Virus record (IMG/VR): IMGVR_UViG_3300013137_000025
Location: 1-55,769 of that record
From: a virus
Length of the DNA stretch: 55,769 nucleotides
Strand: one strand, 5' to 3'
Shown here: positions 158 through 45,291 of the stretch, piece by piece
Layout of the letters: each line of letters opens with the position of its first letter
How positions within the stretch are numbered: the first letter of the stretch is position 1
The notes under the pieces: generated by a model
The model's database searches: none
Told to the model about the DNA's origin: nothing
The model's input: only the letters and a program-made list of their open reading frames with translations
Program-made: the position numbers and the translations under genes

Positions 158-182
158 GAGCCTTAAGGTCCGAATTGTCCAT
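144..182 (-). other. Short leader-like reading frame upstream of the pentapeptide gene
   Basis: A perfect AAGGAG (191-196) stands 8 nt before ATG at 182. That ATG opens only 12 codons (MDNSDLKAHGPQ) before TAA at 144-146, overlapping the first codons of the pentapeptide gene in another frame. It could be a leader that couples translation to the downstream start at 157, or a fortuitous ATG. The AAGGAG overlaps the end of the 15-bp palindrome at 196-210. Confidence 0.3.
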
Positions 183-195
183 GACGTGAACTCCT

Positions 196-210
196 TTCTG
201 AAATTCAGAA
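196..210 (-). promoter_or_regulatory. 15-bp palindrome, copy 1
   Basis: TTCTGAAATTCAGAA, a perfect 7+1+7 palindrome. It lies 7 nt downstream of the stop of the 218-406 gene and just upstream of the pentapeptide-protein gene. One of ten copies, all within 1-4260. Confidence 0.8.
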
Positions 211-217
211 ACTTCTG

Positions 218-406
218 TCAATCCCTGGCGTGTATGAGGTCCTGGAAGTCATTGTGTCTTGCAAGCTCTCCCAACTCGACCTCCAGCTCCCGGAACTTGG
301 CCTTGTAGTAGGCCAGATCGCTGGTGAGGTCTGCAACCCTGAGTTCGAGGTCACAGACCTCCCTTGCACGCTGCATCAGCAGGCGCTCCAAGTGGGTTTC
401 ATTCAT
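218..406 (-). CDS. Small coiled-coil protein, function unknown
   Basis: 62 residues starting MNETHLERLLMQ. I chose ATG 406 because a GGAG sits 8 nt upstream and the ATG overlaps the stop of the preceding gene (ATGAATGA), the usual sign of translational coupling. A longer frame to 502 would overlap that gene by 100 bp. Residues about 5-50 show a heptad pattern of Leu/Ile/Val with many charged residues, so a coiled coil, probably oligomeric and cytoplasmic. No family recognised. Confidence 0.65.
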   Translation of the reverse strand: MNETHLERLLMQRAREVCDLELRVADLTSDLAYYKAKFRELEVELGELARHNDFQDLIHARD

Positions 407-770
407 ATGCGGACTCCACGAATTTCCAGACTTCGGGGATGAATTGTAGGACCCGTCCCAGCACCACGTCTGGATACAAGTTGTGATACGTTTCTCCTTC
501 ATGGGTGAGGGACCACCGCAGGCCGTCGTATTCCAGGTCGAATACGATCGAAGTGGCCACCTTCACAGGACGTTTTTCCGTCCTGGCGACCCCTGTCGCC
601 CGTTGACACGCCTCTTTGTTGGCCAGTGGGCCAAGCAGGGTCAGATAGGACTCCTCTATCGACCATCCACCGGTGGGATGCTTGGCCACCCAGCCCCATG
701 ACATGCAGTCCGACTTGGGGTGGTACTCTATGTCGAATTCCACAGATACATCGAAGTGTCTCTTGATCAC
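399..770 (-). CDS. Hypothetical phage protein, 123 aa
   Basis: Starts with GTG at 770 (MIKRHFDVSVEFDIEY) and ends at TGA 399, overlapping the next gene by 8 nt. The sequence is soluble, mixed alpha/beta in look, with tryptophans near both ends and no membrane segment or cysteine pattern. The SD is weak. It sits in a leftward series of very small genes separated by the 15-bp palindrome, although no palindrome precedes this one; it follows the 787-1014 gene after 16 bp. Function not recognised. Confidence 0.6.
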   Translation of the reverse strand: MIKRHFDVSVEFDIEYHPKSDCMSWGWVAKHPTGGWSIEESYLTLLGPLANKEACQRATGVARTEKRPVKVATSIVFDLEYDGLRWSLTHEGETYHNLYPDVVLGRVLQFIPEVWKFVESAYE

Positions 771-786
771 TGTAGCCGTCCGTTTT

Positions 787-1014
787 CTAAAGGTTGGAAT
801 TGTCCCCTCTGGCCTCTTCTAGGACACAGTCCACCAGATCGTCCGAATCCATCAATCCCCAATGCTCATGGCTTCCATCCGGCCGGTCGATGTTGACTGC
901 CACGTATCGGTATACGGGCAGAGCATTGAACTCATGGTCATCCGCCCTGGAGATAGTCACCTTATTTCCATTGGAGAAGGTGATTTCGATCCCGGTTTCG
1001 GTATTCTTGAACAT
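787..1014 (-). CDS. Hypothetical small protein, 75 aa
   Basis: Starts MFKNTETGIEITFSNGNKVT, with AAGGAGAG 7 nt before the ATG. Composition is beta-rich and acidic towards the C-terminus (DSDDLVDCVLEEARGD). The terminal codons GDNSNL lie in a copy-like segment (GACAATTC) of the second repeat family. No signal peptide or membrane helix. Its closest upstream neighbour is a 26-codon reading frame at 1027-1107. Function unknown. Confidence 0.65.
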   Translation of the reverse strand: MFKNTETGIEITFSNGNKVTISRADDHEFNALPVYRYVAVNIDRPDGSHEHWGLMDSDDLVDCVLEEARGDNSNL

Positions 1015-1026
1015 ACTGTCTCTCCT

Positions 1027-1107
1027 TCAAGAGTTAAGCCATCCCCAGATGGCCATGGTGATTTTCCACGCCTCTCTCCCGGATACCCAAAACAGGCACC
1101 CGATCAT
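1027..1107 (-). CDS. Possible 26-aa hydrophobic micropeptide
   Basis: ATG 1107 to TGA 1027 encodes MIGCLFWVSGREAWKITMAI plus a short Trp-rich tail. It fills the space between the palindrome at 1129-1143 and the 787-1014 gene, whose SD follows its stop directly. The hydrophobic N-terminus could insert in a membrane. The SD is poor (GGAG only 2 nt from the ATG), so this may be leader RNA rather than a gene. Confidence 0.3.
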   Translation of the reverse strand: MIGCLFWVSGREAWKITMAIWGWLNS

Positions 1108-1128
1108 GACTCCAGGGTATTGCCTTCT

Positions 1129-1143
1129 TTCTGAATTTCAGAA
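1129..1143 (-). promoter_or_regulatory. 15-bp palindrome, copy 2
   Basis: TTCTGAATTTCAGAA on the plus strand. The TGA stop of the 1138-1398 gene is formed inside it (TTC TGA), so the element follows one gene with no gap and precedes the next start (1107) by 21 bp. Confidence 0.8.
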
Positions 1144-1398
1144 ACTGTCTTCGGGGATGACTTTCCCGAAGTAGAAATCGAGGAGACACCAGTCCTCGGT
1201 CTCGTCCACGGGGACCAGAGTGTCTCTCGACCCCCGGAATTGGGCGTCCCGGAATGCCTTCCAGGACCGAGACCGGGCCCGCTGGACGTCATTCCAGGCA
1301 TTGGGTACCCGGTTGATCCCATGCCTGACCTTCGGCTGGAACATCTCATCCCCCTCCAGGCTCCGATACCACTGTCTGGTTCCCCTCGGCCTACGCAT
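1138..1398 (-). CDS. Hypothetical Arg-rich protein, 86 aa
   Basis: ATG 1398 is preceded by AAGGAG at 8-nt spacing; two GTG codons just upstream (1401, 1404) are alternatives. The N-terminal half is strongly basic (MRRPRGTRQWYRS) and the C-terminus acidic (VDETEDWCLLDF). The last codon pair TTC TGA lies within the downstream palindrome. It could bind nucleic acid on charge alone, but no motif supports this. Confidence 0.6.
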   Translation of the reverse strand: MRRPRGTRQWYRSLEGDEMFQPKVRHGINRVPNAWNDVQRARSRSWKAFRDAQFRGSRDTLVPVDETEDWCLLDFYFGKVIPEDSF

Positions 1399-1414
1399 CA
1401 CCACATCTCCTTGA

Positions 1415-1429
1415 TTCTGAATTTCAGAA
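1415..1429 (-). promoter_or_regulatory. 15-bp palindrome, copy 3
   Basis: TTCTGAATTTCAGAA on the plus strand, 16 bp upstream of the ATG at 1398, with the AAGGAG SD between them. This is the standard order palindrome, SD, start seen in this arm. Confidence 0.8.
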
Positions 1430-1446
1430 AATCTCTCCGGGAGAGA

Positions 1447-1638
1447 TTACGACACGTATGCCAAACCCAACTGCCTGGCGATCTGTCGCTTAGCTCCCCT
1501 CGTCAAAGATGTGTTGCGAAGCTGAGCACGAAGCTCCGACTCCCGAATTGCCCCGTAGTTAACAGGGACCGGCTTCCCGAAGACCCTGAACATTGGGTTC
1601 GGGATGCCCCTGGGTGAAGACCCCCAATCAATTCTCAT
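1447..1638 (-). CDS. Hypothetical basic protein, 63 aa
   Basis: ATG 1638 overlaps the end of the upstream membrane-protein gene by 11 nt and has GGAGG 6 nt upstream inside that gene, so the two are coupled. The C-terminal half is Arg-rich (RGAKRQIARQLG) and helical, as in small DNA-binding proteins, but no defined domain is seen. It contains an in-gene copy of the CCGAATTGYC repeat (1543-1552). Confidence 0.6.
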   Translation of the reverse strand: MRIDWGSSPRGIPNPMFRVFGKPVPVNYGAIRESELRAQLRNTSLTRGAKRQIARQLGLAYVS

Positions 1639-1840
1639 CGTCGTCCTCCATCAACCGAGGGAGTTCGATGATCAGAAACATGCCGCCCAGGATAGCCCCG
1701 ATCATGGACCCGAGGATCCACAATGGCCGGAGCATGGGATTCCAGGGCCAGATACCCAGGGCCCCCTCGAAGGCGGCTCCCAGGAACAGGGAGATCAATG
1801 CCCCGATCCCCACGGCTCGGGTGAGTCCAGAGAGTTTCAT
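1628..1840 (-). CDS. Small two-helix membrane protein, 70 aa
   Basis: MKLSGLTRAVGIGALISLFL starts a first hydrophobic helix (about residues 8-28). A second (about 42-62, LWILGSMIGAILGGMFLIIE) follows a short loop, and the C-terminus is acidic (LMEDDDEN). The palindrome copy at 1854-1868 ends 13 bp upstream of the ATG, with AAGG between. It is an integral inner-membrane protein by prediction; holin, superinfection-exclusion and unrelated roles are all possible and nothing here decides. Confidence 0.65.
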   Translation of the reverse strand: MKLSGLTRAVGIGALISLFLGAAFEGALGIWPWNPMLRPLWILGSMIGAILGGMFLIIELPRLMEDDDEN

Positions 1841-1853
1841 GTATCAACCTTCT

Positions 1854-1868
1854 TTCTGAATTTCAGAA
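1854..1868 (-). promoter_or_regulatory. 15-bp palindrome, copy 4
   Basis: TTCTGAATTTCAGAA on the plus strand. As with copy 2, the stop codon TGA of the preceding gene (1863-2189) is part of the element, and the next ATG (1840) follows after 13 bp. Confidence 0.8.
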
Positions 1869-2189
1869 ATTCCTCACCAGTCCCATGCATCCTATCGGCC
1901 GACCCTTCTCGTCCCGAATTAACTCTCCGGGAGAGAACACATCCCCCCGGTTGGGGACCGCCAGTCTCACCTGGGTGGACACCACCCACCCCACCCCCTC
2001 CTTGGGCTCGGGAAGGAATTCCACCTCCCCCACCCTCTGGGTGAAGATGTCCACCGTCGTCCCAGTCGGAAACTCGACTAAGATGTTCTCCGTCTCCACC
2101 CGAGCCTCGACTCCCGAGGGAACCAACACCATCCGGCCCCGCTGGGAGTGAACCACAATCTCATGCTTCGTCAGGTTCACGAATTCCAT
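1863..2189 (-). CDS. Conserved phage hypothetical (NLTxH family), 108 aa
   Basis: Begins MEFVNLTKHEIVVHSQRG, continues with a PSG..ARVE segment, then GEVEFLPEP and VVSTQVRLAVPNRGDVFSPG, and ends with a GRPIGCMG box. This order (N-terminal NLTPH, PSG, LPEP, VS...R.D...P, G...G) is a pattern I recognise from a small protein common in phages and prophages; its function is unknown. The SD AGGAGG is strong. It is the first gene after a 200-bp spacer holding an inverted repeat (2228-2244), so it may head a transcription unit. Confidence 0.75.
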   Translation of the reverse strand: MEFVNLTKHEIVVHSQRGRMVLVPSGVEARVETENILVEFPTGTTVDIFTQRVGEVEFLPEPKEGVGWVVSTQVRLAVPNRGDVFSPGELIRDEKGRPIGCMGLVRNF

Positions 2190-2395
2190 AAGTCCTCCTA
2201 TTTCAAATCCCGACCATCCCGATCAAGATTCCAAGGTTTGGAATAACTACCCATCACCCACGATACCCAGAGGGTTAGGGTAATAATTATTCGAGAACTT
2301 CGGAGATTCGGGGAATTAGTTTAATCCCCTGATGAATACCCCAAGGTAACGCAGGGAGGGCCCAAACTTCGAGCCCCCCCATTCTGACTGCTCGG
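2190..2395. other. Non-coding spacer with inverted repeats
   Basis: No plausible gene. It holds a perfect inverted repeat ATTCCAA-GGT-TTGGAAT (2228-2244), an AT-rich stretch (about 2281-2292) and a G4/C4 imperfect stem around 2314-2335. At its right edge a hairpin TTCTGAC-TGCTCG-GTCAGAA (2382-2401) overlaps the stop of the 2396-2581 gene. The first repeat, 39 bp upstream of the ATG at 2189, looks like an operator. The G/C stems near the right end may terminate the upstream gene. Confidence 0.45.
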
Positions 2396-2581
2396 TCAGA
2401 AGTTGACCAGGACACCCACGGCGTTCGGGTGGGCCTGGCGGTACTTCGCCCGGCTCGCCGCCCTCTTGGCCAACTTGGCCACCCGAGCCTTCTGCTCCTC
2501 TACCCGAGCCCTCTGCCTCGCCTCGAAGTCCGCCAACATCATGCTACGCAGCTGGGACAGCTTCCCATTGGCGTCCATCAT
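2396..2581 (-). CDS. Small basic helical protein, 61 aa
   Basis: MMDANGKLSQLRSMMLADFE leads into a long Arg/Lys/Ala-rich amphipathic helix (about residues 20-48) and ends NAVGVLVNF. SD GGAGGG lies 4-7 nt before the tandem ATGs. The helix suggests a nucleic-acid-binding or oligomerising mini-protein. The stop TGA lies in a TTCTGA context and in a hairpin resembling the 15-bp palindrome with its halves moved apart. Confidence 0.6.
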   Translation of the reverse strand: MMDANGKLSQLRSMMLADFEARQRARVEEQKARVAKLAKRAASRAKYRQAHPNAVGVLVNF

Positions 2582-2596
2582 TCAACCCTCCACTTA

Positions 2597-2611
2597 TTCT
2601 GAAATTCAGAA
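2597..2611 (-). promoter_or_regulatory. 15-bp palindrome, copy 5
   Basis: TTCTGAAATTCAGAA, 15 bp upstream of the ATG at 2581, with the GGAGGG SD between. Confidence 0.8.
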
Positions 2612-2654
2612 TCTTGGCGTTCCCAAGTCCTTGAATTCCAGAGGTTTCCGACTT

Positions 2655-2692
2655 CCCCCCGGAGGGGGATTCACCCAGGAACCACCTGGGAT
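2655..2692. terminator. Double hairpin after the 2704-2937 gene
   Basis: Leftward from the stop at 2704 the sequence can form CCCAGG/CCTGGG (about 2675-2692) and then CCCCC/GGGGG (about 2655-2670) stems. There is no clear U-tract, so termination is inferred from position and stem strength only. Confidence 0.4.
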
Positions 2693-2703
2693 CATCAGGC
2701 CGG

Positions 2704-2937
2704 TTAGAGGATCGAGGAATCAGGGAGGTTCGGCACCCCGAGAGCATACAGGGTATTCTGGCTCCTGGCGATCATGCAACCAGGAGTCTGATCACCGAAT
2801 TCCATGGCGACCAGGGGACTGGTGATTGCCCGGTGACCATCCGGGAGCCGGGGGTGGTCGTAAACGATCCCCTCCAGGCAGATCCCATGGTCCGGAAAGT
2901 TGATCGTGGACCACTTTTCCATCAATGCGATGACCAT
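2704..2937 (-). CDS. Hypothetical protein, 77 aa
   Basis: MVIALMEKWSTINFPDHGIC opens a soluble protein of mixed composition with two cysteines (CLEG, PGCM). The palindrome copy at 2950-2964 precedes the ATG by 12 bp. It is the first gene after the repeat-rich island 2965-3444. No domain recognised. The upstream region can also be read in longer overlapping frames, but those run through repeats and are not gene-like. Confidence 0.55.
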   Translation of the reverse strand: MVIALMEKWSTINFPDHGICLEGIVYDHPRLPDGHRAITSPLVAMEFGDQTPGCMIARSQNTLYALGVPNLPDSSIL

Positions 2938-2949
2938 GGTAAGCCCTCT

Positions 2950-2964
2950 TTCTGAATTTCAGAA
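2950..2964 (-). promoter_or_regulatory. 15-bp palindrome, copy 6
   Basis: TTCTGAATTTCAGAA on the plus strand, 12 bp upstream of the ATG at 2937. Confidence 0.8.
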
Positions 2965-3444
2965 TTACGGTCCAAGTGTATATTTCGGCTCCCCGACTAT
3001 CGGGGGTCCGTGGAGCAAGTGAATATTGATGCCCGAAAACCGGGGGGTTTATCGGACGAGTGGATAGGAAATGCACAGATGACGTATAATTGGGGGTTTT
3101 TGCCCCCAACCGAAGTGTATATTCCCCTTTCCTCCCGAATCGTCCTTCCTGAACCCCTTGGAACCTGGACTGGGACCACCGAAAAAGTGGATATTTCGAT
3201 GTTCCACAGTCGTTTCTGCATATTGCCCGATCTTGAACCCCCGAATTGTCGACCTTCGACGGCCCGAAGTGAATATCGATGCCCCAAAACACGGGGTTCT
3301 ATCGGGCACCTGGATAGGAAATGCAATCCAGGAATATCTGGGGGCAATTCGCTCTGAATAAGCGAATCGAATTACCCCCGTGAAACATCACAGGAGATGC
3401 ACTAAGTTAGCCTCATCTCCTGATCCGGGGATTCCGAATTGTCC
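2965..3444. repeat. Non-coding island of diverged repeats and hairpins
   Basis: No convincing gene in 480 bp. A 60-bp unit occurs twice (3016-3075 and 3266-3325, about 80% alike by eye, both ending TGGATAGGAAATGCA). Its core AAGTGDATAT recurs at about 2974, 3017, 3113, 3185 and 3267. Each lies near G/C-rich stems, for example CCCCGA/TCGGGG (about 2991-3005), TTGGGGG/CCCCCAA (about 3090-3109) and ATTCGCT/AGCGAAT (about 3348-3368). A strong stem AGGAGATG/CATCTCCT (3392-3421) follows the 3445-3612 gene and may terminate it. Frames through the repeats shift relative to each other, arguing against coding. Confidence 0.6.
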
Positions 3445-3612
3445 CTACTTTTCGAGAGAAACGAACACCCGAGCGCTGGAGACACCTTTCTCTTCCCGCC
3501 GAGAGGCGGCGAACTGCTCCGCCTCTTCCGACGACCGGAAATAGAATACCTGGTCATTGGTCCAATAGAAACTGATGACCACGACAAAGTCGAATTCGAA
3601 TTCGAACGTCAT
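3445..3612 (-). CDS. Small hypothetical protein, 55 aa
   Basis: ATG 3612 (MTFEFEFDFVVVISFYW) has GGAGGG 5 nt upstream; a longer frame to 3657 would read through the palindrome and is rejected. The N-terminal third is beta-like with alternating Phe/Glu/Val, then a helical acidic and basic part (SSEEAEQFAASRREEK). The same GGAGGG-5 nt-ATG layout is found in the next gene, 3690-3869. Function unknown. Confidence 0.65.
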   Translation of the reverse strand: MTFEFEFDFVVVISFYWTNDQVFYFRSSEEAEQFAASRREEKGVSSARVFVSLEK

Positions 3613-3629
3613 TCTCACCCTCCACTTCT

Positions 3630-3644
3630 TTCTGAATTTCAGAA
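3630..3644 (-). promoter_or_regulatory. 15-bp palindrome, copy 7
   Basis: TTCTGAATTTCAGAA on the plus strand, 17 bp upstream of the ATG at 3612, with GGAGGG between. Confidence 0.8.
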
Positions 3645-3689
3645 TCTCCTGATCCACGGAATTATGGACCAGGGGAGCCCGAATTGCCC

Positions 3690-3869
3690 CTACCTGACCA
3701 CCACAGGACGGACATAGTCGTCATGGTCGACGACCAGCAGGCCGGGGGAGTAGACCGAGATCATCCGCAGGATCTTGTACCCGTCCTTGGGGAGGAACAT
3801 CGTCCCCAAGGGACCGGTGAATACATGAACGTCCAACCCCTTCTCGACCTTATCAAACTCGAAGATCAT
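3690..3869 (-). CDS. Small hypothetical protein, 59 aa
   Basis: ATG 3869 (MIFEFDKVEKGLDVHVFTG) has GGAGGG at 5 nt; a GTG at 3875 is an alternative start. The pattern of alternating hydrophobics with GLLVVDHDDYVRPVVV at the C-terminus suggests a small beta protein. After the stop TAG the sequence GGGCAATTCGG is a copy of the second repeat family. Two tandem palindromes lie upstream. Confidence 0.6.
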   Translation of the reverse strand: MIFEFDKVEKGLDVHVFTGPLGTMFLPKDGYKILRMISVYSPGLLVVDHDDYVRPVVVR

Positions 3870-3886
3870 TGTCACCCTCCTCTTCT

Positions 3887-3901
3887 TTCTGAATTTCAGA
3901 A
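3887..3901 (-). promoter_or_regulatory. 15-bp palindrome, copy 8
   Basis: TTCTGAATTTCAGAA on the plus strand, 17 bp upstream of ATG 3869. Copy 9 follows 21 bp further upstream, the only tandem pair. Confidence 0.8.
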
Positions 3902-3922
3902 TTATCTGGGCTCTCCAGAAGT

Positions 3923-3937
3923 TTCTGAATTTCAGAA
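3923..3937 (-). promoter_or_regulatory. 15-bp palindrome, copy 9
   Basis: TTCTGAATTTCAGAA on the plus strand, ending exactly where the doubtful 3938-4147 frame ends. Confidence 0.8.
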
Positions 3938-4147
3938 TTACCAGGCATTCCGAATTAGGCAGAGGTATCCCCCCCCGGTCCAGCCAGGGTGGACCCTATT
4001 CGGAATTACCCAAGGGGATTCGGATTCCGAATTATCCAGGTGATTATCCACCCGAATTACCCGGCATGTGAGCCCCCTATCGCCCCAGGTCACTTGGCGG
4101 TTCCAGGTCTTTACCTGGGGCAAGTCCGCCCGGTCGACATCGACCAC
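3938..4147 (-). CDS. Doubtful small reading frame, 69 aa
   Basis: GTG-started frame (MVDVDRADLPQVKTWNRQVT) without a good SD. The stop abuts palindrome copy 9, as real genes in this arm do. However, the frame runs over four CCGAATTA/CGGAATTA repeats (3950, 3999, 4027, 4052), which makes the tail look repeat-derived. It may be a decayed gene or non-coding. Confidence 0.3.
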   Translation of the reverse strand: MVDVDRADLPQVKTWNRQVTWGDRGLTCRVIRVDNHLDNSESESPWVIPNRVHPGWTGGGYLCLIRNAW

Positions 4148-4227
4148 AGACCGTATTCAGGATCCAATCCGGATCCGCATACGCATATCCATATCCACGT
4201 ATTCCGCATATTCGCATAAATGCAGAC
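4148..4227. repeat. Short GCATA/CATATCC microsatellite-like tract
   Basis: Between about 4160 and 4220 the hexamer-like units CGCATA, TCCATA and CCGCATA recur several times. No gene is visible. Confidence 0.4.
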
Positions 4228-4263
4228 GCCTCGGATATCTCTGAAATTCAGAATATCCGAGGC
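4228..4263. terminator. Long hairpin with palindrome copy 10 at its tip
   Basis: GCCTCGGATAT...ATATCCGAGGC flanks the palindrome core (4239-4253, first base changed: CTCTGAAATTCAGAA). The whole 36 bp folds as one near-perfect stem with a single extra C. It lies 24 bp downstream of the stop of the helix-turn-helix gene, so a terminator or processing site is likely. There is no long U-tract. Confidence 0.6.
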
Positions 4264-4286
4264 GCCTGGCACGACTTTTGCCGCAG

Positions 4287-5321
<1,035 letters not shown>

Positions 5322-5354
5322 TGTCAACCTTCCTTGCTTTGGCCGGGTTCGCGC

Positions 5355-5369
5355 GCGGCAGTTTGCCGC
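5355..5369. promoter_or_regulatory. Inverted repeat in leader of the helix-turn-helix gene (candidate operator)
   Basis: GCGGCA-GTT-TGCCGC, a perfect 6-bp dyad 34 bp upstream of GTG 5321 and downstream of the promoter. The half-site GCGGCA is the core of the direct repeats at 5438-5502. Confidence 0.5.
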
Positions 5370-5403
5370 TTGCCCCCCGACCTCCCTTACAACGTGTCCA
5401 CTA

Positions 5404-5432
5404 AAGATAAGCATTCGCCAGCCCCTTGTCAA
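5404..5432 (-). promoter_or_regulatory. Sigma70-type promoter for the helix-turn-helix gene
   Basis: Leftward: TTGACA (5427-5432), 17-bp spacer, TATCTT (5404-5409). Transcription would start near 5397, giving a leader of about 75 nt carrying the inverted repeat and the SD. Confidence 0.65.
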
Positions 5433-5437
5433 GCCTC

Positions 5438-5502
5438 CCGGCGGCAGCCGGCGGCAACCCCAGCCGGCGGCAGCCGGCGGCAACCAGCGGCAGCCGGCGG
5501 CA
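5438..5502. repeat. Phased 9-bp direct repeats (iteron-like array)
   Basis: CCGGCGGCA starts at 5438, 5448, 5464, 5474 and 5494, plus one variant (CCAGCGGCA) at 5484. Spacings are 10, 16, 10, 10 and 10 bp, so most copies are one helical turn apart on the same strand. The array lies directly upstream of the -35 box of the helix-turn-helix gene, in the divergent region between leftward and rightward operons. Confidence 0.6.
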
Positions 5503-5982
5503 GCGTTACCGAATTGCCGAATCCCCCAGCCCCCGTTCTTTCCGAATTCCGGAAAGACGAGAAACTTGGACCCCAGCCCTTGACAGATCCAGGTGGATGT
5601 AAAATCCAGATTTGGAAAAACGCTGTACGCTACCTCATCCTTTTGAAGTCGAAATCCGTACACCCCCTCCCCGAATTCTCGAATCCCCCAATCATGGTTT
5701 CCCCCCGGAATATCTGTTCCCCAATTCTCTTTCCCCGAATGTCTAATTCTCTATTCCTCTGGGGTTTCTAAATCTCTGAATTGCTGTGGGGTTATCTGGG
5801 TTATCTCTCCCTGGATTCTCTGGTTCCTTTTGGACGACATAGTTGTCCTTGGGTTCTATATTCCTCTTTGGATGGCCTCTGAATCGTCTTTACCTGTGTG
5901 GAGGGGTGACTGCTTCTGAACGCGAAGTTCTCTTTTTCGCGGGGATGATTTGATTATTGGTTCTCCTTTTTGGGAGGAGAAA
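5503..5982. other. Divergent intergenic region with CCCCGAAT/TCT tracts
   Basis: No gene supported. From about 5660 to 5830 short units such as CCCCGAATTCTC, CCCCAATTCTCT and CCCCGAATGTCT recur in a pyrimidine-rich strand, making a locally AT-richer zone beside the GC-rich iterons. A hairpin CGCGAA/TTCGCG (5921-5941) with an internal T-run precedes the first rightward gene. A promoter for the rightward operon must lie here, but I cannot pick a convincing -35/-10 pair. Confidence 0.4.
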
Positions 5983-6477
5983 TTGGAAATTGGTAAACCG
6001 AGGGGGAATGTATTATGGATAGACATCGGTTACATGTGGTTTGGAGTTCACATTCCGGCCGGAGGGAGGGGAATGGATGGGGATTGTGATGTGAAGGTAT
6101 GGATTGATTGGGAGTGGATGAGGATAGAGGTGTCGGGGGATGGGGATCGGCGGGTGGTGGTGTTTAGTGAGGCGTTTATGGAGAGGCTGAGGGGATGTGC
6201 GCAGCGCACCACGATGGTGGTATTGTCGAAGGTGTTGAAGTCATTGGGGGCTATGGGGATGATGGTGGATGATGTGGTGCAGTTGGATGAGTTATCGCGG
6301 TGGTATGGATTGGAGAGGGGGGAGGATGGGGAGTGGGATTGGGGGAAGGTGGCATGGGGGGATGATCGGGATTTGACGGTGTGGTGGTTTATGGATGGGG
6401 GGTTGGGGATGGCGGGGGTGGGCAAGGTATTGGGGTTATTGGACCGGGTAGTGAGGGAGATGGAGAAGGGGTTGTGA
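5983..6477 (+). CDS. Hypothetical Trp/Asp-rich protein, about 164 aa
   Basis: TTG 5983 is preferred (GGAGG 5 nt upstream; protein MEIGKPRGNVLWIDIGYMWF); an upstream TTG at 5950 lacks an SD. The coding strand is strikingly G-rich (runs of GGGG and GATG). The protein is acidic with many Trp and Met (VKVWIDWEWMRIEV; DLTVWWFMDGGLGMAG). It is the first gene of the rightward operon, and its stop overlaps the GTG of the PP-loop enzyme gene. No family recognised. Confidence 0.6.
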   Translation: MEIGKPRGNVLWIDIGYMWFGVHIPAGGRGMDGDCDVKVWIDWEWMRIEVSGDGDRRVVVFSEAFMERLRGCAQRTTMVVLSKVLKSLGAMGMMVDDVVQLDELSRWYGLERGEDGEWDWGKVAWGDDRDLTVWWFMDGGLGMAGVGKVLGLLDRVVREMEKGL

Positions 6478-7328
6478 GGGTGATTGTGGGGTTGAGTGGT
6501 GGAAAGGCGTCGGCGTGGTGTGCTGGGTGGGCGTTAAGGAACTTCCCCAAGGAAGGGGTAGTTTTCTATTTCAATGATACCAAGTGGGAGCACCGGGATC
6601 TGTATAGATTTATTGATGATCTGTCAAGATATTTTGATCATCCTATTACAGTGGATTCGGATGGAAGGAGTCCTGAGGATTTGTTTCGTGAATACAGAGT
6701 ATTGGCTAGTAGTAGGATGCCGTTTTGCACCAGGATTCTGAAGGCCCAGAGGCTTCAGGTATTTTATGAGGATGGGGATGTGTTAGTTTTCGGTATAGAT
6801 TCCAGGGAACCGGAGAGGGCGAAAAATCTGGAGAGAATTTATTCGATGGTGGCTATTAAAACCGGGAAGAAATGTCAGTTGAGGTTTCCCCTTATAGAGG
6901 AGCGGGTTACAAGGGATCAGGTGGATGAATTTATCAAGAGCACGGGCATCTTGGAGCCACAGATGTATCGATTGGGGTTCTTGCATAACAACTGCTCGGG
7001 TGGGTGTGTTAGGGCGGGGAAGAGACAATGGAAGATGCTGTATGAGAAGCTCCCCGAGGTATATGCTGAGAGGGAGAGGGTGGAGAGGGAGCTTGGTGAG
7101 TTGTTGGGGAAGAAGGTGTCTTTCTTAAGGGGAGAGACCTTAGAGGAGTTCAGGGGGAAGATTGAGAGAAAGTCCTTATCATCCTATTACTACGACGATA
7201 CGTGTAGTGGTAGGGAGTATTGGAAGCTGGTGAGCAGGTATGAGGCTGATAAGAAAAAGAAGGCGGCCCCTCGTCCAACCCGTGGGAAGAAGGGGTTTGT
7301 GCGTAGAAGATTTGGGATTGGGAAATAA
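6474..7328 (+). CDS. PP-loop ATP-pyrophosphatase, phage PAPS-reductase-like family
   Basis: GTG 6474 overlaps the previous stop (GTGA) and has GGAGAAGGGG upstream. The 284-aa protein starts VRVIVGLSGGKASAW, where SGGKAS (8-13) is the ATP-binding PP-loop of the PAPS reductase/adenine nucleotide alpha-hydrolase superfamily. FYFNDTKWEH (31-40), MPFCTRILK (82-90) and HNNCSGGCVRAGKRQWKML (about 168-186) are motifs typical of phage members, with Cys pairs that could bind metal. Relatives either reduce PAPS or modify nucleic acids (DndC-type sulfur transfer); no DndD/E-like partners lie nearby. A nucleotide- or nucleic-acid-modifying role is the most that can be inferred. Confidence 0.85.
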   Translation: MRVIVGLSGGKASAWCAGWALRNFPKEGVVFYFNDTKWEHRDLYRFIDDLSRYFDHPITVDSDGRSPEDLFREYRVLASSRMPFCTRILKAQRLQVFYEDGDVLVFGIDSREPERAKNLERIYSMVAIKTGKKCQLRFPLIEERVTRDQVDEFIKSTGILEPQMYRLGFLHNNCSGGCVRAGKRQWKMLYEKLPEVYAERERVERELGELLGKKVSFLRGETLEEFRGKIERKSLSSYYYDDTCSGREYWKLVSRYEADKKKKAAPRPTRGKKGFVRRRFGIGK

Positions 7329-7339
7329 GGAGAGAGATA

Positions 7340-7666
7340 ATGCGCATAGGCGAGGTCGTGATGGCGTTGTTGGGGGGAGGGAAGAAGGCTGGGCCTCTGG
7401 AGGAAGTGGAGTCACCGCCCCCTGCTCCGGCCGTGGACGAGTTGACCTTGGTAATCCATCTGAGGAATGGCCTAAAGAGGACCTATACAGCACAGATAGG
7501 GAAAACTGACCAGAAGATTGAGGCGGATTTAAATGTTCATTATCCCCAGTTGTGGGAGGAGTTGGAGGGGAATGGGAAGTCGGTATTGTTTCAATACAAC
7601 GAAGGGGAGGATTGGTTTTTGAGGGAGGAGATTGTCCTCGTCACCCTGAATTTGAAGAGGGGGTGA
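7340..7666 (+). CDS. Hypothetical protein, 108 aa
   Basis: ATG 7340 after AAGGAGAG. The N-terminus (MRIGEVVMALLGGGKKAG) is followed by a Pro-rich spacer (PPPAPA, about 26-31), then a small alpha/beta domain (LTLVIHLRNGLKRTYTAQIG...VLVTLNLKRG). It follows the PP-loop gene by 11 bp in the same operon. Function unknown. Confidence 0.65.
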   Translation: MRIGEVVMALLGGGKKAGPLEEVESPPPAPAVDELTLVIHLRNGLKRTYTAQIGKTDQKIEADLNVHYPQLWEELEGNGKSVLFQYNEGEDWFLREEIVLVTLNLKRG

Positions 7667-7670
7667 TGGA

Positions 7671-8090
7671 ATGAGTGATACGAAGAGGTATGTTCTTGTT
7701 TATGCTGGGTTGGATAAAAAGGGCAATGCCGACAACAGGTATTTTGTTGGCCAGAATCTCTACCTTGGCATAGCCAATATAACGGATAGCCTGGAGTTGG
7801 CCACTATCATGTCTCTTGAGGAAGCGGAGAAGGTCTGGGGTTTGATGGCGGCAAAGAAGGATTGGCAGATTTGGTCTATAAGGGACAGCATTGTTCTTTA
7901 CGAGGAGTCGGATAGGCACTTGCTTATGGAGAAGCGCAAGAGGCTATCGGAGGAGTTGATGTCGATAGATCTCCAGCTTAATAAGAACTCAGACGGGCAT
8001 GGGGAGCGCCCACAGATATCTCCTGAGAATATGAGAAAGATGATAAATACTACCAGTGTTACGACGGACCAGGCTGGGTCTGTGGAGTGA
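7671..8090 (+). CDS. Hypothetical protein, 139 aa
   Basis: MSDTKRYVLVYAGLDKKGN opens a probable alpha/beta domain (residues 1-85). A helical segment rich in Lys/Arg/Glu (about 88-110, DRHLLMEKRKRLSEELMSID) and a polar tail follow. Start follows the previous stop by 4 bp with GGGGGTG as SD. No motif recognised. Confidence 0.65.
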   Translation: MSDTKRYVLVYAGLDKKGNADNRYFVGQNLYLGIANITDSLELATIMSLEEAEKVWGLMAAKKDWQIWSIRDSIVLYEESDRHLLMEKRKRLSEELMSIDLQLNKNSDGHGERPQISPENMRKMINTTSVTTDQAGSVE

Positions 8091-8289
8091 GGAAATTCGG
8101 GATGGACCTGATAGTGGGACGCCACGAACGCGCCTGTTCGAATCGTCTAAGGTGAAACCTGTGCACAGCGGACGCCGTGTACTACGGTCGGGAGATCGGG
8201 GAGGAGCATGACCTCCGGCGGGTGTTTCAGGTCCATCCCATTGGATCATATGGGAACTTTCACTCTCCAAGGGCTGGAAAGGAGTGGCG
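8091..8289. other. Intergenic stretch in the rightward operon
   Basis: 199 bp without a supported gene, the largest gap in an otherwise packed operon. It holds a small hairpin CGAAC/GTTCG (about 8128-8143), a 17-codon frame from ATG 8102 and GC-rich text without periodicity. It could be a decayed small gene or carry an internal promoter. Confidence 0.35.
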
Positions 8290-8703
8290 ATGAACCTATT
8301 CACTGCGGAATATTGGGCCAAACATTTTGAACGAATGGAATACGAAGATGGCATTTATCCCAGTGAATCGGACGCCATGATGATTGATGATGTAGCAATC
8401 TTGTATGTGGATCACCTTGGGATGATCCAAATGGAGGGGGCGCGGAGGGGGTCGTTTATCGTTCCCCTAAAGGGTTACCGTAAGGTGAGGGACCTGGAGG
8501 TAGCGATTTCCTTCCGGCCCTGTAAAGAGGGGTTTTGTGGCTCGATTTGGACTGTCGATACCCAAGGAATCGGGTTCTCCTTCCTTGTGCTAAGGGCCGG
8601 CAAGCCTTATGTTTATGGGGTGGCATTGGAGGGCAAGTATCTGGGCCCCATGAACGAAGACGAGGAGGAGGCTCTTGATGCACTCAATGAACGTAGAGGC
8701 TGA
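8290..8703 (+). CDS. Hypothetical phage protein, paralogue of the 10343-10954 product
   Basis: ATG 8290 has AAGGAG 5 nt upstream. The 137-aa protein (MNLFTAEYWAKHFERMEYED) shares an order of motifs with the product of 10343-10954: T-A-x-x-W-A near the N-terminus, a DDV-I(L/I)Y box followed by MIQMEGA or LLELEGA, an I-W segment and a GFSF box. Members of this family in other phages have the pattern ASEWAEKLNGRE...IVFGYSDDL.EF.GA; function unknown. Its 3' end overlaps the next gene. Confidence 0.7.
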   Translation: MNLFTAEYWAKHFERMEYEDGIYPSESDAMMIDDVAILYVDHLGMIQMEGARRGSFIVPLKGYRKVRDLEVAISFRPCKEGFCGSIWTVDTQGIGFSFLVLRAGKPYVYGVALEGKYLGPMNEDEEEALDALNERRG

Positions 8704-9079
8704 CGCTTCGAGTGATGGATGTCCCAGTGATGAAACAGGGGTTCTCTTGGATTTTCAGGATTCGTCTATCATGTTTGATGGAGAGCTTCTGGATGCTCTG
8801 GAGGCTGCTCCTGCTTGGGTCGCTGCGACGGTGGTTGGGGGAATCTCTGATCATTACGCAAGGATGCATATAGCTCGTGCCCAGGTTGATAGGATTCAGT
8901 CGATATTATGGAGGTTTGCTCACAAGTATCCGCATGAAATCCAGATACTGCTGGACTGGATGCGAAGAGGGTATGAGTATTCTGGAGATCCTTTTAGTGA
9001 TCTGAAGTTTCTTACTTCGTTTGCCCGATGGGTAGAAACAGAGGACATTATATTCAGGATTTTCAGCAAGGAGGACTGA
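8678..9079 (+). CDS. Hypothetical protein, 133 aa
   Basis: ATG 8678 has GGAGGAGG 6 nt upstream and overlaps the previous gene by 26 nt; ATG 8687 is an alternative. The N-terminus is acidic and disordered (VEADASSDGCPSDETG), followed by a helical domain with several Trp and Phe (RIQSILWRFAHKYP, EIQILLDWMRRG). No homologue recognised. Confidence 0.65.
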   Translation: MHSMNVEADASSDGCPSDETGVLLDFQDSSIMFDGELLDALEAAPAWVAATVVGGISDHYARMHIARAQVDRIQSILWRFAHKYPHEIQILLDWMRRGYEYSGDPFSDLKFLTSFARWVETEDIIFRIFSKED

Positions 9080-44745: not shown

Positions 44746-45291
44746 TTACCTCTTCGAGTGCTCTTCTGCCTTGCGCTGAGCTTCTTCCATGGCGTTGCGC
44801 TCATACATATTTTTGGTGCCCCTAACAATCGCGAACGCCTCAAGAAGATCTGTTAATTCGATGTCGAACCCCAGGACTTGACTTCTAATCTCTGGATCAT
44901 TAATGTTTACGTGATATTGGGTAACCTCTGATTCCGCCTCGATCAGTTTTTCGGCAACCTCATCAACGAATGCCTCGATACACACCGGCTTGAAAGTAGT
45001 TGTCATGATTTGATAAGCGGAATATTCAGGAAGGGCAAGTTGTAGGTTCCACAATTCCATCAACAATCCATCTTCATCAAGTTCCCTATGCTCTACTACA
45101 GGATGTTTCGTGGCATCAAGCTGTTGACGTCCATTGTCGTCGAACCGGGGGATTGGAATCACGGGATCCCCCATGGTCTCCATGAGTTCTGGGTATCTGT
45201 AGCATACCCGTTTCTCAAACAACTTCTTCTTGTAGCATACAGCACAGGAGAAGTCCTTCATACGTGATGCCCGTTCGGTTTTCCACATCAC
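44746..45291 (-). CDS. Tail assembly chaperone, frameshifted part (gpT-like)
   Basis: The frame stays open upstream into the slippery run at 45314-45321 and is -1 relative to the preceding gene, so it is probably made as a fusion with it, like lambda gpGT. It can also be read from ATG codons at 45291/45288. A Cys cluster (FSCAVCYKKKLFEKRVCYRY) near the N-terminus may bind zinc. The C-terminal half is helical (EFELTDLLEAF-like; NAMEEAQRKAEEHSKR). It precedes the tape measure gene by 5 bp and would chaperone its folding. Confidence 0.75.
   Translation of the reverse strand: MMWKTERASRMKDFSCAVCYKKKLFEKRVCYRYPELMETMGDPVIPIPRFDDNGRQQLDATKHPVVEHRELDEDGLLMELWNLQLALPEYSAYQIMTTTFKPVCIEAFVDEVAEKLIEAESEVTQYHVNINDPEIRSQVLGFDIELTDLLEAFAIVRGTKNMYERNAMEEAQRKAEEHSKR

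Follow-up and report, generated by a model that had tools for sequence, protein, structure and literature searches.

Direct and inverted GCGGCA repeats flank the promoter of a predicted DNA-binding gene in a phage contig and suggest an autoregulated switch

Several plasmid regulators act on short repeats placed at their own promoters. ArdK, a helix-turn-helix (HTH) repressor of the KorA family from plasmid R388, binds as a dimer to TTGACA arms that are repeated directly with a 4-bp spacer (a 10-bp period) beside the -35 box; inverted repeats, in this case synthetic ones, also support repression by ArdK, with an optimal spacer of 3 bp (PMC9723621). KfrA of RA3 regulates its own gene; it has an N-terminal HTH and a helical tail, and the operator at its promoter comprises five 9-bp repeats (PMC7783346). 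StbA of R388 has 9-bp direct repeats (stbDR) around the promoter of its own operon, and a motor-like protein, StbB, is unneeded for stability (PMC3098194). The oriS/repE region of mini-F is laid out in the order iterons, promoter, inverted repeat and gene (PMC13028717).

The window analyzed here is the whole of a linear virus record of 55.8 kb, IMGVR_UViG_3300013137_000025. A leftward gene block occupies 0-5.3 kb on the minus strand, a rightward block spans approximately 6-13 kb on the plus strand, and the remainder, from about 13 to 55.7 kb, carries mostly leftward genes, including those for head and tail. The contig is linear and lacks end repeats and is, therefore, probably incomplete, so that replication genes may sit beyond its ends. 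Some 630 bp of intergenic DNA separate the leftward gene 4287-5321 from the rightward operon and hold a direct-repeat array, a promoter and an inverted repeat. The first gene of the rightward block displays a G skew of +0.76 over 500 bp (6001-6500), and up to +0.9 per 100 bp, which far exceeds that of the rest of the window. Its transcript would be very G-rich and could favour R-loops.

The array (5438-5502, plus strand) was delineated by TRF and by repeat listing, and comprises six 9-bp units of CCGGCGGCA that start at positions 5438, 5448, 5464, 5474, 5484 and 5494, with start-to-start spacings of 10, 16, 10, 10 and 10 bp. Five units are exact, and the one at 5484, CCAGCGGCA, carries a single mismatch that falls outside the GCGGCA core. 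The TRF scores are 85 for a period of 10 and 102 for a period of 26. A 9-mer present five times within 5401-5540 was obtained in none of 5000 dinucleotide shuffles (maximum, 4), and a count of at least five over 5322-5950 in 7 of 2000, because the CCG-rich local composition helps; shuffling does not model slippage, and the improbability that it assigns to the array ignores that process. Among all 6-mers of the 55.8-kb window, only GCGGCA, with four phased copies at 5467, is found in at least three copies at an exact 10-bp period. The phased motif also has an inverted pair less than 250 bp away, at 5355, with a 3-bp spacer.

Between the array and the gene lies a sigma-70-like promoter (5404-5432, minus strand, the same strand as gene 4287-5321), in which a TTGACA box (5432-5427) and a TATCTT box (5409-5404) are separated by 17 bp and match the consensus at 10 of 12 positions. 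The array ends 5 bp from the -35 box, and transcription is expected to start near 5397. The inverted pair forms a perfect repeat, GCGGCA-gtt-TGCCGC (5355-5369), in the gene's leader, roughly at positions +28 to +42 and thus between the promoter and the start codon. It is a candidate operator, and can also form an mRNA hairpin. An inverted repeat of any sequence with 6-bp arms and a spacer of 0-8 bp is unremarkable alone in this leader (p 0.17 by dinucleotide shuffling), whereas one built from the array core GCGGCA arises in 0.18% of the shuffles (p 0.0018). The combination of array and inverted repeat exceeds chance, and the identity of the array core with the inverted-repeat arm argues for function. 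The sites, their geometry and the consensus promoter are established; they bear out the preliminary description of this DNA, which had reported six repeats on one strand, mostly 10 bp apart, upstream of a good promoter, and an inverted repeat with the same core in the leader of the gene. The interval given there, 5355-5502, takes in both the inverted repeat and the array.

A serious rival to the transcriptional switch that is favoured below is a neutral tandem expansion, in which the array would be a minisatellite grown in a GC-rich, slippage-prone area and the inverted repeat a coincidence or an mRNA hairpin. The adjacent gene is filled with GCC-type repeats, and perfect four-copy 10-bp arrays of CCAGCGGCAC and CCGGCGGCAA are present in two unrelated viral contigs, one of them within an ORF. 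These two arrays, whose units nearly equal that of the phage array, lie at 1234-1276 of L010 and at 3433-3473 of L009, both viral contigs, and neither record contains a match to the regulator. With GCC repeats nearby and similar arrays in unrelated contigs, the birth of the array by slippage is clearly possible; the folding of the leader (z -1.9) is also in line with a hairpin. Against neutrality, however, stand the shared core of the array and the inverted repeat, the placement of the array between divergent operons and against the -35 box, and the lone mismatch, which spares GCGGCA. We regard a purely neutral origin as possible but rather unlikely.

Gene 4287-5321 (minus strand) encodes a protein of 344 amino acids, and starts near 5321 with a GTG codon preceded by an SD-like GGAAGG. 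Its frame stays open upstream as far as 5663. The GC content by codon position has a coding pattern below 5321 (0.65/0.43/0.74) and a non-coding one above it (0.58/0.58/0.61; 0.40/0.55/0.51), which places the array outside the coding sequence; an upstream start that would make the array coding was rejected on these grounds. The predicted protein consists of a helical N-terminal domain with an HTH (residues 1-86), an Ala/Pro-rich linker (approximately 125-206), a helical C-terminal part with heptad-like segments (approximately 207-302), and a tail of Ala/Val/Pro repeats. Ala/Pro-coding tandem repeats of GCC type occupy 4287-4414 and 4703-4916 of the gene, one of them with an 18-bp unit in 6.4 copies.

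No family was named for the protein by Pfam, PHROG or NCBIfam, and a PDB sequence search with it returned nothing. The best sequence-based indication of an HTH was Pfam HTH_26, a match (E-value 0.057) that falls short of the cut-off of that family. The structure of the N-terminal domain (86 residues; 5064-5321, minus strand) was, by contrast with these sequence matches, modelled with fair confidence (pLDDT 86.7). A VIA-align comparison of this model placed ParB or Noc DNA-binding domains in nine of the ten best rows, with Z values of 4.0-5.2 and deviations of about 3.1-4.1 Å over 57-77 residues, and KorB at ranks 13 and 16. The match to Spo0J (1vz0; Z 5.2, 3.8 Å over 76 residues) is below the level that shows kinship, and Foldseek matches of the domain all have E-values above 1. 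The absence of other families from these fold lists is no proof against them. The weak resemblance to ParB, Noc and KorB could, for a small helical domain, reflect just a common arrangement, but the predicted fold fits both the HTH call and the binding of a palindrome. Support for the preliminary description of the product as an HTH protein comes from predicted structure with weak fold matches, and from no sequence family. A Foldseek match to a primase (5vaz, E 1.6) was discarded as not above chance. A longer model of 124 residues was too poor and was set aside for the better 86-residue one; ParB and KorB were already among the weak VIA rows of the longer model.

The anatomy of the locus, with a DNA-binding-type protein and the GCGGCA core present as direct and as inverted repeats on either side of a promoter, supports a regulatory reading. 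The explanation that we favour, and to which we give about an even chance of being correct, is an autoregulated transcription switch in which the product of gene 4287-5321 is a dimeric HTH protein with GCGGCA as its half-site. That both kinds of site are bound by this protein is our inference. Binding to the inverted pair, just 3' of its own promoter, would block or road-block transcription, and cooperative binding to the phased 10-bp array that adjoins the -35 box would tighten repression of the leftward operon. An effect of the protein on the rightward operon, on the far side of the divergent region (5503-5949), is possible as well.

Autoregulation is preferred because of the spacing precedent of ArdK, and because the arrays of KfrA and StbA lie at promoters of regulators that are not initiators. 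As in ArdK, the arms are 6 bp long, the direct repeats have a 4-bp spacer and sit beside the -35 box, and the inverted repeat has a 3-bp spacer, with binding predicted in the phage case. ArdK, however, is a protein of 102 amino acids that acts naturally on two-arm direct repeats, whereas the phage locus combines six units and a natural inverted repeat with a protein of 344 residues, and no sequence similarity between the two proteins was recognised. The likeness to KfrA lies in short repeats at the gene's own promoter, the N-terminal HTH, here predicted, and the helical C-terminal part. The KfrA repeats differ in that they overlap the promoter and two of them are reversed, and the phage protein differs in its Ala/Pro-rich linker and in the lack of a match to the KfrA model. 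With StbA the locus shares 9-bp direct repeats at the promoter of a putative DNA-binding gene; the stbDR repeats have an 11-bp period (9 + 2), form two sets of five and are followed by stbB and stbC, and no inverted operator is described in the passages on them (PMC3098194). The KorA and StbA family models, like that of KfrA, gave no match to the protein. An autoregulated HTH gene with short direct repeats at its promoter is equally typical of non-initiator plasmid regulators such as ArdK, KfrA and StbA.

This last point bears on the proposal, made in the preliminary description, that the locus is an origin with an autoregulated initiator. The protein would then initiate replication on the direct repeats, as on iterons, and repress its own gene through the inverted repeat. 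The strongest point for an origin is the order repeats, promoter, inverted repeat and gene, which resembles that of mini-F oriS/repE (PMC13028717). The inverted repeat of array half-sites between promoter and gene (5355-5369) is likewise a trait of iteron replicons of the Rep_3/RepE type, and the array sits at a divergence point. The iteron units of such replicons are about 17-22 bp, far longer than the 9-10 bp of the units in the phage locus, which are also 84% GC. No Rep-family match, that is, to a Rep winged-helix initiator domain, was found for the protein in Pfam, PHROG or NCBIfam, and the only DnaA-like box (TTWTNCACA) in the window is at 45279, about 40 kb away; in both respects the locus departs from that of mini-F RepE. 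The AT-richer tract described beside the array is real but modest. The stretch from the array to the rightward operon is AT-richer than the array, with a GC content of 38-56% over 5550-5950 (38% in 5600-5649 and 44-54% farther right), and the array itself has the highest GC of any stretch of the intergenic region. The GC skew had been put forward as a check for a replication start at 5.4-5.9 kb. It is negative on the leftward genes through to the right end and positive only on the rightward block (6-12 kb), and it reverses at about 5.9 kb, where the coding strand changes; the skew follows gene strand and was rejected as evidence of an origin. The regulatory half of the earlier proposal is thus supported by the anatomy, with the core in both types of site around the promoter, whereas the origin half is not supported, with neither a Rep domain nor a nearby DnaA box. 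We consider an iteron origin very unlikely.

A further rival is a role in partition, in which the array would be centromere-like and a ParB-, StbA- or KfrA-like adaptor would serve to segregate a plasmid-like phage genome, or to tether it, while repressing its own gene. The DNA-binding domains of ParB, Noc and KorB give the best structural matches to residues 1-86, weak as these are, the protein has a long linker and a helical C-terminal part, and precedents are provided by KfrA and by StbA with its 9-bp repeats. Unlike ParB, Noc and KorB, however, the phage protein has no N-terminal CTPase domain, since its HTH-like domain fills residues 1-86, and it was matched neither by the ParB model nor by that of the CTPase domain. 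No partner, whether ParA, ParM or TubZ, was recognised either among the proteins scanned, which represent part of the genes of the contig. The contig is linear and gives no sign of a plasmid-prophage state. A partition system is, accordingly, judged quite improbable.

A wider form of the autoregulated switch draws on the same resemblance. A phage protein with a ParB-like fold but without the CTPase would read one 6-bp half-site in two ways, as an inverted pair for autorepression and as a phased array for assembly, and would control the divergent early operons and possibly the replication or maintenance of the phage genome, with the C-terminal part joined through the long Ala/Pro-rich linker. 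We hold this extension to be unlikely. Recognition of one half-site as both direct and inverted repeats is known for few prokaryotic regulators, and for ArdK, the known example, the inverted ones were synthetic. A locus that carries both topologies naturally, at the same spacings and beside an orphan phage gene, would offer a direct test of how a dimer chooses between them, and would add a first regulator to a phage group for which hardly any relatives are known.

The scarcity of relatives is apparent from the searches. Scans of viral and genome contigs with the N- and C-terminal parts of the protein yielded no homologues; these scans rely on short exact peptide matches and may miss distant ones. 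None was found by tblastn in phages and plasmids, nor in five individual records in which one was sought. DNA similarity of 5322-5560 to phages and plasmids was limited to chance matches, and the first rightward gene, used as a query, retrieved no relatives. One related phage, IMGVR_UViG_3300035698_019600, was found through its capsid (72% identity). It has mainly structural genes in common with the contig; neither the regulator nor an CCGGCGGCA array was found in it, and no part of 3000-9000 was matched at the DNA level.

Other repeats are concentrated in the left end of the window. A 15-bp palindrome, TTCTGAAWTTCAGAA, occurs in ten copies between 197 and 4253, all in the left 4.3 kb, of which the copy at 4239-4253 has one end change. 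With up to two mismatches allowed, 21 occurrences were counted on both strands against 0.5 expected. Eight copies lie approximately 12-21 nt 5' of an ATG in a leftward frame, beside the ribosome-binding site. The set is a candidate stoperator-like or leader-element regulon, and is possibly more striking than the GCGGCA array; one extended 20-base form of the palindrome had no exact match in viral contigs. Just 3' of gene 4287-5321, a long near-perfect hairpin (4223-4268) with one copy of the palindrome at its centre may be a terminator or an operator. The first 6 kb contain 13 copies of the heptamer CCGAATT (170-5677), as against nine in the remaining 49.8 kb, and the left end of the contig (1-91) consists of a 15-bp tandem repeat, CCCCGGACAGGTCCG, in six copies.
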